A stretch of DNA of 47,643 nt from Hymenobacteraceae bacterium (lineage in GTDB: Bacteria > Bacteroidota > Bacteroidia > Cytophagales > Flexibacteraceae), in the NCBI GenBank assembly GCA_947459175.1, contig CANHCT010000006.1, forward strand, positions 1 through 47,643, given 5' to 3'. The number at the start of each line of letters is the position of its first letter. Within the stretch, counting starts at the first letter, position 1. The notes below the pieces were generated by a model, which had not been told where the DNA came from, searched no databases, and worked only from the letters and a program-made list of their open reading frames with translations. This document shows positions 23,892-29,069 of this stretch, piece after piece. A program made the translations under genes and the position numbers.

Positions 23892-24689
23892 TTATTTGTC
23901 TACCGAAATCAGTTCTACTTCAAAAATCAAAGTAGCGCCCGGCTGAATTTTGGGTGGTGAACCTCCGTCGCCATAGGCCAGATCAGATGGAATATACAAC
24001 CTCCACTTCGAGCCGGGTTTCATCAGTTGAAGGGCTTCAGTCCAACCTTTTATGACCCCATTTACAGGAAATTGGGCGGGTTGTCCCCTTTCTACAGAGC
24101 TGTCGAACACGGTGCCGTCTATCAAAGTTCCGGTGTAGTGAGTGGTTACTGTGCTGGTTGCTTTCGGGCTTTCACCGGTTCCGTCTTTGATGATTTCGTA
24201 CTGCAGGCGGCTGGGCAACTCCACTACGCCGGGTTTCTTTTTGTTTTCTTCTAAAAATTTTCTTCCGGCCATTTTGTTGGGTTCAGCTGAGCTTTTTGCA
24301 TCGCTTTGCATTTTATTCCTCATTTCCTCTTCAAATTTTTGAAGGGTTGTCATTATTTCTTCGTCCGACATCAAGGGCTTGCCCCCATTGTAGATATCTG
24401 CAAATGATTTTACAAACAGGTCCGGATTGATTTCAATTTTCTGATTGGTAAACTGCCTGGCAATGTTGCTGGCTATGGCATAGGTAAGCCGGTCTTTTTT
24501 AGTCGTGGGTTTGGGTATTTCGGAAGTTGGTTTTTCCCCGGCATTGACTTTTGATTTTTGGCTTTCCGGATAAAGTTTTTGTAATTCTGCATCCTTTTTC
24601 CCGGTGCTTTTTTTGGTTTTCTGTGCCCAAAGATTTCCTGAACTTATGCACAACAAAAGGCCGGAAAGTAAAAAGAGGGTATTTTTCAT
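23892..24689 (-). CDS. Exported FKBP-type peptidyl-prolyl isomerase
   Basis: A 265-residue foldase. Signal peptide 1-22 ends in LWAQ. The middle (about 60-150) is a helical FKBP N-terminal dimerisation-type region, and the last 110 residues are the FKBP domain, with VTTHYTGTLIDGTVFDSS, VIKGWTEALQLMKPGSKW and IPSDLAYGDGG. It resembles FkpA/Mip and should assist folding of periplasmic or outer-membrane proteins. The start is ATG 24689; the frame runs on to 24827 but the extension has no export signal and covers the promoter. It is the first gene of the cluster ending in dnaX. Confidence 0.92.
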   Translation of the reverse strand: MKNTLFLLSGLLLCISSGNLWAQKTKKSTGKKDAELQKLYPESQKSKVNAGEKPTSEIPKPTTKKDRLTYAIASNIARQFTNQKIEINPDLFVKSFADIYNGGKPLMSDEEIMTTLQKFEEEMRNKMQSDAKSSAEPNKMAGRKFLEENKKKPGVVELPSRLQYEIIKDGTGESPKATSTVTTHYTGTLIDGTVFDSSVERGQPAQFPVNGVIKGWTEALQLMKPGSKWRLYIPSDLAYGDGGSPPKIQPGATLIFEVELISVDK

Positions 24690-24706
24690 TAAATGTAAAT
24701 TTGCTG

Positions 24707-24737
24707 CAAAAGTAGAAGGTTTCGACCCTATGCCAAA
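24707..24737 (-). promoter_or_regulatory. Promoter of the FKBP-dnaX cluster
   Basis: On the minus strand TTTG (24737-24734), 19 nt, then TACTTTTG (24714-24707), an exact TAnnTTTG box followed by CAGC. The ATG is 17 nt downstream. Confidence 0.85.
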
Positions 24738-24839
24738 TAATAAATTCAAACGGCACGATTTTCGCTTTACAGATTTAGTAGCGTATTTGCTACCCCTTTG
24801 TCCGAGAGCCTGATCACTGCTGTCCAAAGCCCCTGAAAA

Positions 24840-27800
24840 ATGAAAATTCTGATTTTTTTCCTTCCGCTTTGTTTACCTCTGATTTCCCCTGCACAGAAAC
24901 TGGATAAATATTACAAAAAGCTTGACATTGCTTTTATTCAAGGAAATGTAAATGAGGCAACCGATGTTTACAATGCCCTGATCGGCAAAATTTCAGACCG
25001 AAGCATCACCTTTCAGGATTCCATCCGCCGGCAGTTTTATGAAGCCAAACTCTACAGATTGAGAGGCGATTACAACTACAGCGAAGAACTTGGAAAGCGT
25101 TTTGTAGAAAGGATTAAAAATAAATTCGGAACCCAATCTGCAGATTATTATCAGGTACTGATTGACAAAAGTGAAATTTCACTTCAGGCTGCCGATTATC
25201 ATACTACCCGCGATTGCCTTAAAGAATTCTTTGAAAAAGCCAGAAAATCCGAATTTGCCGATTCGGGAATGGTATACAGGGCAAAATTCCTCAATACGCA
25301 GAACGAACTGGAAAGCGGAAATCTGTCATTGGCATCGACTATGGTGGAAAACCTAATTTTCAAATCAGAAAATCGCCTGTTGGAGAAGATTGAGGTTGCC
25401 GATAAAAAGGGACGAAAGCGATATATCAACCTTAAAACGGATGAATTATTAGACAGAAGGCGTGATTTGGTGAGGGCCCGGCTTTATAAAGCCAGATTAT
25501 TCATTCTCAAGGGTGATTATAAAACTGCCGGAAATGTTTTTGCTGAGGTGCAAACCACCCTCAAAAAAGCCAAAATAAAAACCCAGGATCAGGCCTATGT
25601 GGATTTTCTGCGCTATCAGGCCCATTACTACCTGGCTTTGGATGAACCCAAAAAAGCAATCCAGTTTATGAAGCGGGCCCTGAATGCCTGCGGTAAAACA
25701 AAGGTACCGGTAATGTACGCCAAAACCCATCCAGTGTTTTTGTCCATGTGTGAAGAAATTCAGCGTATGTATGTGCAGGTTAATGATTTTGAAAGGGCTC
25801 AGGATTGGGGAAAAATATACCGGGAAGTCATCATTGACCATTATGGTGAAATGGAGGCGTTTAAAGTCAGACTCAGAATCCCCTTTGCTGCCTCTTGGGA
25901 AAAAAAGGAGACCTCCTTTATTTTCCTTCTGGAAAAGGCAGTAAAGGATATTGAAGCCAACCATTTGCCCAATCAGTATGCTTATGAAATTCTGAAGCAT
26001 TTGTACCAATCATGCATGTACGGCGACAGCGTAAAAAAAGCCGAGGGCTACATCCTGAAGTACCTGGAATTGATCGAATATCAGTGTGGAAAAGAATCGG
26101 TTTTTTATATGCAACAGCAGTGCGAACTGGCGAATTTCTACGCCCAGTTCAGCGACCGGGTGTATCTGGCAGAGCCCTTGTTTCTCAATTACCTCCATCA
26201 GGGCCTTGAAAAACAACTTTCTCAGGAGTCGCTCATGTTTTTGGACGTCCTGAACAAAGAAGGCGATTTTTTTGAAATCAAAGACCAGTTTCAAAAGGCC
26301 ATCAACAACTACATTAAGGTCCAGCAGATTCAGGAAAGAAAATTCGGAAAGGATGATTGGAGGGTGGCATACCAGAGTCTGAAGGTCGGAACCGCAGAAA
26401 TGATGATGGGGGAATACCCCAATGCGGAATCAAAATATCTGGCAGCCCTGCCCCGGATAGAAAAGGAGAGAGGCAAGGATTCCAGAGAGTACATAGAGAA
26501 CCTCCAGAAAATCACCCGATTATACATCATTACCGGCCGGTATGAGGAAGCAGGGAAATATCTCTCCCGCTCACTGAGGGTGGTGAAAACTGCCTCAAAG
26601 GCATCTCTGCTTACCTTCAACGGGCTTGATGAAGAGCTCATGCTCTTGCTGAACAAAGGCCTTTATACCGAAGCACAGGAAAAAACACTTTCTCTCATCG
26701 ATTACCGTCTTAAAAGATATGCCCTGCCCAACCACAGGTCTTACATTATTCCATATCAGATTGGGGCTGAGGTTTTTTTGGTTTCCGGCAATTATACCAC
26801 TGCAGAGGCCATGGCATCCAGGGCATGCCAGGTAAGCAAAGCCATTTTTGGCGATACCAGTCTCCAATACCTCAGAAGCCTCTCCATTTTTTGCAGGGTT
26901 TATGCTGCATTTGGTGATTACGAAAGGGCCAGAGAAAAAGGTCAACAAGCTTTGGAGGGCATTGAAAAGCACTTTGGTGGAGAGCATGTGGAGATATCCA
27001 AACCCCTGACCGACTTGGCAATGATACTTTTTTATCAGGGAGGAGATTCGAAAAGAGTATTCGATATGCTGAACAAAGCACTGGAAATCAACAAAATAAA
27101 GTATGGTTCCGACCATCCCCGGTATGCTGAATCCATGCAGTTTATAGCCTCCTTCTATGTTGCCAGCAGGCAATATCAACAGGCAGCACCCCTGCTCAAC
27201 GATGCAGATAAAATCTGGACAGAAAAACTGGGAACCACCAACACCCATTCTGCCGAAATTCTGACGCTGCGGGGTGAAATTGAGCTGGGACTATTAAACC
27301 ATGAGGCAGCCAGAAAGAATTTTCAAAAGGGAGCAGATATGTACAAAGAGGTTTTCAATGAAGACCATCCCCGTTATGTGGCCATCATGTCGAGAATGGG
27401 TCAGGTTTATTATCTCATGGGTAAGTTGGATAAATCACTGGAAATTTGTGAACTGACTACTGAAAAAAACCTCAACTATGTAAAGAAATTTTTCCCCTCT
27501 ATGTCTGACAGGGAAAAGACAAAGAGCTGGGCTATGATTCGGCCTGATTTCGAATTTTTCTATACCCTGGCTCTGAAATACAAAGAAAAAAAGCCGTCGG
27601 TGCTGGGCAAAATGTTTGATATAGTTTTGAATACCAAAGCCATATTGCTCAATGCCAGTATCAAGGTTAGAGAAAGAATTATTAACAGCGGCGATCAAAA
27701 CCTGAAAAATAAATTCCGTGATTGGACCCGCAAAAAAGAGGAAATCACGGCTGCCATAGAGCTCGGGCCCGAGGAGCGGAAACTTGCCGGTATTGACATC

Positions 27801-29069
27801 AGAAAACTGGAAGTTGAAGCAGAAGAACTGGAGGTGGAGCTAAGTAAAAACTCAGAAGAATTTAAACTTGCCAATGAAGAAAAGAAGATTTCCTGGAAAT
27901 CCATCCGCGATATGCTCGAAGAGGGAGAGTATGCCACAGAAATGGTCAGGTTCAGATATTTCGATAAGGCATTCACAGATTCCGTTATCTATGCGGCACT
28001 GATTGTGAACCACAAAACCAAAAGCCATCCCTCAATTCAACTCCTCGTTCATGGTAACAGCATGGAGAAGAAATACATCAATTATTACCGCAATTGTGTG
28101 AAATTCATGATCGAGGATACTATTTCATACAAAGTCTTTTGGCAACCACTGAAATCTCATTTTCCTCCAAGATCTAAAATATTTTTTGCTCCCGACGGGG
28201 TGTACAATGAGCTGAATCTGGAGTCACTTAAGGGGCCCAACAACAAGTATGTAATTGAAGAAGAAGACCTTGCCCTCATTTCCAATTGCAAGGACATCTA
28301 CAGTGCAAAAAATTTGGTGCCTAAATCTTCAGAGCTGAGAAATACCGCATATCTGCTCGGGGACCCGAGATTTTACAATCAGCCACCCCGTGACGAATCC
28401 GAGTCCATTGCGAATTTGCCAGGAACCCTTCAGGAAGTGCTGGAAATCAATAAAATACTGAAAAGCAGCCGGTGGGAAGCACAAAGTTTTACCGGGGCGG
28501 ATGCAAGAGAAGAAATCATTAAAAACATAAAAAATCCACGCATTCTGCACGTAGCCACCCATGGGTTTTTTCTGGAAGATTTGAAAAATGAAGAGGAAAG
28601 CACCGGTTACAGCCTACTCAATCAAAACAAGGCGGTTGAAAACCCCTTACTTCGTTCGGGTTTATACTTAAATAATGCGGGGGATATCCTTGAGCAGGCG
28701 GGCACCACCTCTGGCTCTCAGGTAGGTGACGGGGTACTCACCGCCTATGAGGCCATGAACCTGAATCTGGCTTCCACAGACCTGGTAGTCCTCTCTGCCT
28801 GCGAAACCGGTCGCGGCGAGGTTCAGGTAGGGGAGGGCGTTTACGGACTCCAGCGTGCCTTCCAGATTGCCGGTGCCAAGTCTGTGATTATGAGCTTGTT
28901 TAAGGTTTCCGATCAGGCTACTCAGGAGCTCATGAATATATTTTACCGGAATTGGATTGGCCGGGGAATGGACAAGCGGAAGGCATTTATTGAAGCCAAA
29001 AAGGAAATGTTAAAAAGGAAACCACAACCCATTTACTGGGGCAGTTTTGTCATGGTCGGAGTGGGCTGA
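24840..29069 (+). CDS. Exported TPR-CHAT protein (caspase-like peptidase domain)
   Basis: A 1409-residue protein. Signal peptide 1-18 (hydrophobic, ending SPAQ). Residues of about 20-900 are helical tetratricopeptide-type repeats with recurring A-x-x-x-Y/F-x-x-A units. A charged coiled coil (about 970-1020) follows, with EVEAEELEVELSKN. The C-terminal third is a CHAT domain: HVATHGFF carries the catalytic H1241, LVVLSACETGRGE carries the catalytic C1321, and the end has GLQRAFQIAGAKSVIMSLF. Both catalytic residues are intact. CHAT domains are caspase/separase-like cysteine peptidases, here probably periplasmic. The substrate is unknown. The gene is divergent from the FKBP operon, with 150 nt between the two starts. 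Confidence 0.93.
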   Translation: MKILIFFLPLCLPLISPAQKLDKYYKKLDIAFIQGNVNEATDVYNALIGKISDRSITFQDSIRRQFYEAKLYRLRGDYNYSEELGKRFVERIKNKFGTQSADYYQVLIDKSEISLQAADYHTTRDCLKEFFEKARKSEFADSGMVYRAKFLNTQNELESGNLSLASTMVENLIFKSENRLLEKIEVADKKGRKRYINLKTDELLDRRRDLVRARLYKARLFILKGDYKTAGNVFAEVQTTLKKAKIKTQDQAYVDFLRYQAHYYLALDEPKKAIQFMKRALNACGKTKVPVMYAKTHPVFLSMCEEIQRMYVQVNDFERAQDWGKIYREVIIDHYGEMEAFKVRLRIPFAASWEKKETSFIFLLEKAVKDIEANHLPNQYAYEILKHLYQSCMYGDSVKKAEGYILKYLELIEYQCGKESVFYMQQQCELANFYAQFSDRVYLAEPLFLNYLHQGLEKQLSQESLMFLDVLNKEGDFFEIKDQFQKAINNYIKVQQIQERKFGKDDWRVAYQSLKVGTAEMMMGEYPNAESKYLAALPRIEKERGKDSREYIENLQKITRLYIITGRYEEAGKYLSRSLRVVKTASKASLLTFNGLDEELMLLLNKGLYTEAQEKTLSLIDYRLKRYALPNHRSYIIPYQIGAEVFLVSGNYTTAEAMASRACQVSKAIFGDTSLQYLRSLSIFCRVYAAFGDYERAREKGQQALEGIEKHFGGEHVEISKPLTDLAMILFYQGGDSKRVFDMLNKALEINKIKYGSDHPRYAESMQFIASFYVASRQYQQAAPLLNDADKIWTEKLGTTNTHSAEILTLRGEIELGLLNHEAARKNFQKGADMYKEVFNEDHPRYVAIMSRMGQVYYLMGKLDKSLEICELTTEKNLNYVKKFFPSMSDREKTKSWAMIRPDFEFFYTLALKYKEKKPSVLGKMFDIVLNTKAILLNASIKVRERIINSGDQNLKNKFRDWTRKKEEITAAIELGPEERKLAGIDIRKLEVEAEELEVELSKNSEEFKLANEEKKISWKSIRDMLEEGEYATEMVRFRYFDKAFTDSVIYAALIVNHKTKSHPSIQLLVHGNSMEKKYINYYRNCVKFMIEDTISYKVFWQPLKSHFPPRSKIFFAPDGVYNELNLESLKGPNNKYVIEEEDLALISNCKDIYSAKNLVPKSSELRNTAYLLGDPRFYNQPPRDESESIANLPGTLQEVLEINKILKSSRWEAQSFTGADAREEIIKNIKNPRILHVATHGFFLEDLKNEEESTGYSLLNQNKAVENPLLRSGLYLNNAGDILEQAGTTSGSQVGDGVLTAYEAMNLNLASTDLVVLSACETGRGEVQVGEGVYGLQRAFQIAGAKSVIMSLFKVSDQATQELMNIFYRNWIGRGMDKRKAFIEAKKEMLKRKPQPIYWGSFVMVGVG

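Follow-up and report, generated by a model that had tools for sequence, protein, structure and literature searches.

The stretch of DNA analysed here (the window) is a single contig of 47,643 nucleotides from a Hymenobacteraceae bacterium, whose genome comprises 3.01 Mb in 243 contigs. Positions 24840-29069 (+) hold an open reading frame (ORF) of 1409 codons, which the ORF list and translation show to be without an internal stop. Its product, a TPR-CHAT protein, is read here with somewhat more confidence than doubt as a separase-like cysteine endopeptidase that is exported, probably soluble in the periplasm, and equipped with a TPR arm for its substrate. Export and fold are predicted, and endopeptidase activity of the CHAT core is inferred. 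Both the fold and the architecture are of kinds already known; what is new is the export together with the conservation of residues.

In the proposed mechanism, a Sec signal peptide is predicted to carry the protein out of the cytoplasm, and the TPR arm of about 870 residues would pick a protein partner or substrate. The linker and alpha/beta unit would support the CHAT core in the manner of Csx29 and separase, if the predicted fold is correct, and H1241 and C1321 would cut the substrate at a specific site. The cut may fall after Arg or Lys, going by motif, because D1358 may occupy the S1 position. Partner binding may turn on the CHAT core, an idea suggested by the poor order of the loops past H1241 and C1321 in the model and by analogy with Csx29, which is allosterically switched.

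What is known of CHAT proteases comes mainly from CRISPR-linked proteolysis inside the cell and from HetF. If true, a separase-like form that is both conserved and exported would bring regulated proteolysis of the caspase-like kind to the cell envelope in free-living bacteria. Additionally, relatives in which the catalytic cysteine is the sole cysteine in about 1400 residues would be convenient for active-site labelling.

Active site, architecture and predicted fold

Residue conservation was assessed in the best 80 of 248 relatives plus the window protein (81 sequences), 79 of them extending as far as the active site. The presumed catalytic cysteine, C1321 (28800-28802, +), is present in all 79 of these, as are R1339 and D1358 (28911-28913, +). 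The presumed catalytic histidine, H1241 (28560-28562, +), and E1322 are each kept in 78 of the 79, and H1237 is kept in 81/81. The first-pass annotation of this DNA had placed an intact His/Cys pair at these two positions, and the dyad is there and is retained in all but one of the readable sequences. In a second set of 50 rows (31 long and 19 others; L074-L076 of the first set match its contigs), a few of which repeat one gene, the readable rows keep H1241 in 48/48, C1321 in 44/44 and D1358 in 43/43, and H1237 is replaced by Leu in seven rows.

D1358, an invariant acid and candidate S1-pocket residue, stands 37 residues past the catalytic cysteine in an LFKVSD-type motif, which we take to be the counterpart of the motif around separase D2151. 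Separase D2151 recognises the P1 arginine, and the Craspase TPR-CHAT protein has K670 at that place (PMC9729208). Judged from this motif match, the TPR-CHAT family is predicted to cleave, perhaps, after Arg or Lys.

Pfam CHAT matches residues 1097-1407 of the window protein (E=4.6e-58, 197.4 bits against a cut-off of 24) and TPR_12 matches with E=2.2e-40, the TPRs being spread along the middle of the chain, which agrees with the TPR and CHAT protein of 1409 residues first annotated. The predicted signal peptide (residues 1-18, 24840-24893, +) is followed by a TPR/alpha-solenoid arm (residues 19-888, 24894-27503, +), recognised from TPR_12 and related Pfam families and from helical hairpins in an AlphaFold2 model of residues 210-1409. 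A search of solved structures by sequence places kinesin-light-chain-like TPRs inside residues 678-870. Next comes a conserved helical linker (residues 890-1025, 27507-27914, +), delimited by DSSP on the models and by conserved alignment columns. The region had been annotated as a coiled coil; it is indeed helical, but the models show long linker helices (approximately 920-1025) entering the alpha/beta unit. This unit (residues 1029-1164, 27924-28331, +; model strands 151-162, 166-178 and 186-190) lies ahead of the catalytic core, falls within the range aligned to Csx29 and separase, and is positioned like the pseudo-protease unit of separase. The CHAT catalytic core (residues 1165-1409, 28332-29066, +) is defined by Pfam CHAT and by caspase-fold (MALT1) matches to model positions 286-530.

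A structure prediction of the CHAT domain, proposed with the annotation, was run with AlphaFold2 on residues 880-1409 (51 sequences), giving a mean predicted local distance difference test score (pLDDT) of 83.1 and a predicted template modelling score (pTM) of 0.82. Foldseek with this model returns Craspase TPR-CHAT chains first (E=3.1e-12), then human separase (2.9e-7), DdvA (5.0e-7), SAVED-CHAT (1.5e-4) and RgpB (4.6e-4). VIA-align likewise gives Csx29 (Z 25.3 over 352 residues, root-mean-square deviation (rmsd) 3.2), separase (Z 20.7, 389 residues, rmsd 3.9), DdvA (Z 19.7, 331 residues, rmsd 3.5) and SAVED-CHAT (Z 17.9, 179 residues, rmsd 2.7). Thus, the CHAT core is predicted to have a caspase/separase-like fold, as modelled and matched to Csx29, separase, SAVED-CHAT and MALT1. 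The model of residues 210-1409 (1200 residues; mean pLDDT 83.8, pTM 0.72) has a continuous helical-repeat arm, and its top Foldseek match is human separase (E=1.7e-14). VIA puts TPR proteins first for this longer model (Rap, Z 28.3), as expected from the long repeat. Searches of solved structures by sequence gave no meaningful match with the CHAT region or its profile, and TPR proteins only with the whole protein.

Export, cysteine content and the weighing of the evidence

The N-terminus, MKILIFFLPLCLPLISPAQK, has a 12-residue Kyte-Doolittle maximum of 2.74 and a candidate cleavage site between SPA and QK, after residue 18; the AQK site is common to three same-genus orthologues. In 69 of 71 long members the N-terminus is hydrophobic, and many have a site of the AxA-like or AQ type, so that the signal peptide first annotated in the window protein recurs in the family. 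The two exceptions, L083 and L101, have frames that start inside or after the expected signal peptide. In L038 and L083 the TPR-CHAT open frame starts within the expected signal peptide (FFISQHALAAEK...), which suggests that the frame is broken, or the sequence in error, shortly before the frame start.

Hydropathy and site scans found no lipobox and no internal transmembrane (TM)-like segment in the window protein, and Pfam found no type IX secretion system (T9SS) sorting domain (Por_Secre_tail) on it, since the chain ends in the CHAT domain, which extends to residue 1407 of 1409. Soluble periplasm is therefore favoured, and a protein soluble in the periplasm is probably the simplest reading, as a prediction from these sequence features. 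The annotated action outside the cytoplasm, at the periplasm or surface, accords with the predicted export. A cytoplasmic location and loss of the catalytic residues in all close homologues had been named as outcomes that would count against the annotation; what was found is a recurring predicted signal and a retained dyad.

C1321 is the only cysteine after residue 20 in 31 of 69 long members, and at most two cysteines are present in 49 of the 69. The mean number of cysteines per 100 residues is 0.193 in the family, 0.385 in 64 signal-like neighbours and 0.706 in 48 neighbours without signal-like or TM-like segments.

Several observations weigh against an exported endopeptidase. The export call was made from hydropathy and a cleavage-site scan, and in two long members (L013 and L014) a TM-like segment occurs around residue 247. 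The window protein itself is not depleted of cysteine: it has 13 in total and 12 in the mature chain, close to the 9.8 that the cytoplasmic-like rate predicts for 1390 residues. A content of at most one cysteine per 1390 residues is also seen among the 64 signal-like neighbours, in 35.9% of them, compared with 2.1% of the remaining 48, and low cysteine content thus argues for export in general rather than for catalysis; what is particular to the family is that the single cysteine retained is the catalytic one. The conservation sets include many near relatives, so the counts are of non-independent events, and D1358 as an S1 residue is a motif match. In the model of residues 880-1409, pLDDT is below 50 at model positions 369-386, 411-414 and 449-452 (residues 1248-1265, 1290-1293 and 1328-1331), which lie partly just after H1241 and C1321. 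Finally, L078, a 1408-residue frame from a metagenome-assembled genome (MAG), has Asn at the H1241 position and keeps the Cys. This Asn could mark a natural pseudo-protease or a sequence error.

The last two of these points, and the indirect basis of the activity, are what a catalytically idle scaffold can draw on: the CHAT core would be structural or peptide-binding and the protein an envelope TPR adaptor. This is considered unlikely, as C1321 is kept in every readable sequence of the first set and is often the last cysteine remaining, and the 50 rows of the second set keep the histidine, cysteine and aspartate wherever they can be read.

Delivery to the surface or medium by the T9SS or another route is less likely again. 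The genome encodes many T9SS sorting tails (93 matches at E<=0.001, some of them below the cut-off) and two C25 peptidases, but the protein lacks a sorting domain, its CHAT match stopping two residues before the C-terminus, and lacks a lipobox. Co-occurrence with the T9SS was tried as a clue and is uninformative: within the order, 139 of 148 genomes have a C25 peptidase, and the nine negatives are confined to one small-genome family, none of which has a TPR-CHAT match.

Family distribution and genomic surroundings

Same-genus orthologues share 67%, 49% and 49% identity with the window protein over almost the full length, and a fourth shares 75% over 281 residues, ending at a contig end. The closest relatives among the best 80 of 248 come from Cytophagaceae/Cytophagales MAGs, and that scan also includes relatives in the cultivable Marivirga, Fulvivirga and Ohtaekwangia. 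Of 148 genomes sampled from the order, 89 give a TPR-CHAT match at E<=1e-60, with best matches in open frames of about 1400 residues; the ORF stands well above chance because full-length open-frame homologues exist in the genus and order.

A tree of the linker-CHAT region (48 rows, 45 different) separates 31 long rows plus one contig-edge frame from 16 rows (13 different) of shorter genus paralogues with strong support (100/99). The window gene thus belongs to the long group, apart from the short paralogues of its genus. The four sequences of the genus group together in a supported clade inside the long group, and the same-family sequences L012, and L013 + L014, branch elsewhere. Multiple long copies are present in some genomes, e.g. 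G119. With same-family members scattered and multi-copy genomes present, strict vertical descent is not established.

A profile of the N-terminal half gives full-length matches in 4 of 345 phylum-sample genomes (three candidates scored per genome), one being the source genome and all four within the same order, and 7 further partial matches. A profile of the C-terminal half matches 45 of 295 class genomes, and some of these matches outside the order lie in frames of about 1400-1500 residues (e.g. G584, G685, G707, G513 and G577). With a linker-CHAT profile, frames of 1512 (G584), 1450 (G685) and 1423 residues (G707) from another order of the same class are matched at E of about 1e-210 to 1e-215. 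The long form is therefore not order-specific, and restriction to the order, considered as a possibility, is contradicted by the long frames found with the C-terminal-half profile. A search of openly licensed PMC papers, which is weak evidence of absence, returned no paper recognised as describing the exported family.

Short TPR-CHAT paralogues occur in clusters in the source genome (L070, contig C98, 3-10453) and in G001 (L072, contig C129, 2-11081). Between them lie T9SS-sorted proteins, a LamG/N-glycanase_C protein (L070:6456-9836) and a matrixin with PKD_6 domains (L072:987-4211), and a 91-residue CHAT remnant is found at L070:6167-6442.

In the genus, the TPR-CHAT gene is divergent from a block encoding FKBP, a Wzz-like protein, a 194-residue protein and dnaX, followed by an outer-membrane-protein-like gene; this synteny is seen in the window, G001, G003 and G004 as far as the contigs extend. 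The divergent neighbour at 23892-24827 (-) is an FKBP-type isomerase that also scores over the NCBIfam cut-off for the BamJ family of beta-barrel assembly (116.7 bits against 100). The convergent neighbour is a glycosyltransferase in the window and a PKD_6/T9SS-sorted protein in two same-genus genomes: a complete reprolysin-like metalloprotease at L065:5935-9738, and L064:2-1480, which is cut by the contig end. Among window ORFs, only the TPR-CHAT gene and rpoC exceed 1000 residues. The promoter motif TANNTTTG is not enriched in the window (30 matches against 33.8 expected).

ORFs flanking the 81 loci, some on short contigs, were clustered in the conserved-neighbour search that the annotation had suggested. 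Within eight genes, a methylmalonyl-CoA mutase cluster recurs at 37 of the 81 loci, dnaA at 29, an HtrA-like protease at 14, an ion channel at 9 and recA at 7; one member of each named cluster was identified by Pfam. An example of the HtrA-like cluster, probably linked by lineage, is the trypsin-PDZ gene L091:5216-6655 (-). By appearance, the recurring clusters look like lineage-specific surroundings, and therefore no conserved partner is claimed.

A further possibility is that the family acts as an extracytoplasmic site-1 envelope protease, in which the TPR arm would capture a regulator such as an anti-sigma factor and CHAT would cut it behind a basic residue and so relay an envelope signal into the cell. 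By analogy, three comparisons point that way: Csx29 cleaves Csx30, a sigma-factor inhibitor (PMC10028731); CHAT proteins are mentioned in the gene context of ECF54 sigma factors (PMC8999054); and the fold resembles DdvA. This is regarded as a long shot, as no extracytoplasmic function (ECF) sigma factor gene recurs at the loci. Sigma factors of the source genome, with frames from eight of ten places, were compared with the flanking ORFs and matched at 4 of 81 loci (L079, L080, L086 and L095) at differing positions, a comparison that may miss divergent ECF factors.

More doubtful still is a defence or cell-suicide effector switched on by an infection signal, as in Craspase. The Csx29 fold is shared, and CHAT proteases have established or proposed roles in defence (PMC9729208, PMC10028731, PMC10907252). 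Against this, PADLOC gave no match for the protein and the five neighbours tested, the neighbours identified are housekeeping or envelope genes with no defence gene among them, and no Cas7-11/gRAMP was seen among the neighbours scanned (part of the window ORFs). The annotated lack of an adjacent CRISPR or gasdermin partner thus holds for the neighbours covered by Pfam and PADLOC. The surroundings are stable within the genus, and the context, as far as neighbours were identified, fits a chromosomal gene that stands alone better than one belonging to a known defence island; predicted export would separate the protein from intracellular triggers. Additionally, 31 pattern matches in viral contigs yielded no confirmed relative, in a scan made insensitive by patterns drawn from one sequence. 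Least probable is a cytoplasmic location, in which the hydrophobic N-terminus would have no role in export. The 12 mature cysteines of the window copy would suit this reading, but it conflicts with the near-universal hydrophobic N-terminus of long members, with the cleavage-like sites that many of them carry and with the low cysteine rate across the family.

Comparison with known systems

The exported endopeptidase reading places the window protein beside several known groups. HetF of Anabaena also combines CHAT with TPR; unlike the window protein, it is predicted to contain a TM segment and carries its CHAT domain within residues 1-555 (PMC8406250). CHAT proteins beside the type VI secretion system (T6SS) of Bacteroides fragilis are likewise from Bacteroidota, and one is described as apparently transmembrane; they differ in belonging to a T6SS variable region and being proposed immunity proteins, and are likened here by description (PMC11854122). 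Gingipain RgpB and other C25 peptidases share the caspase-like fold (Z 16.5-16.9) and form a family separate from the window TPR-CHAT protein. They are exported cysteine proteases of Bacteroidota that are not known to have a TPR arm and are sorted by the T9SS.

DdvA (8rot, 8rw5) matches the fold of the same C-terminal 530 residues (Z 19.7). It is a transmembrane anti-sigma factor according to the entry title and PMC4374960, whereas the window protein has no TM-like segment and no recurring ECF neighbour. Csx29, the type III-E Craspase TPR-CHAT protein, unites a TPR arm, a linker and a CHAT core with a His-Cys dyad in a single chain, as in the window protein, and matches its C-terminal 530 residues most closely (Z 25.3). 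The window protein differs in its longer TPR arm and in having no Cas7-11 among the neighbours scanned, and its family keeps D1358, whereas the Craspase protein has K670 at the place of separase D2151 (PMC9729208). Eukaryotic separase shares a helical-repeat arm and a two-part protease, and is the top Foldseek match of the 1200-residue model; the window protein, at about 10% identity, is set apart from it in being bacterial and predicted to be exported.

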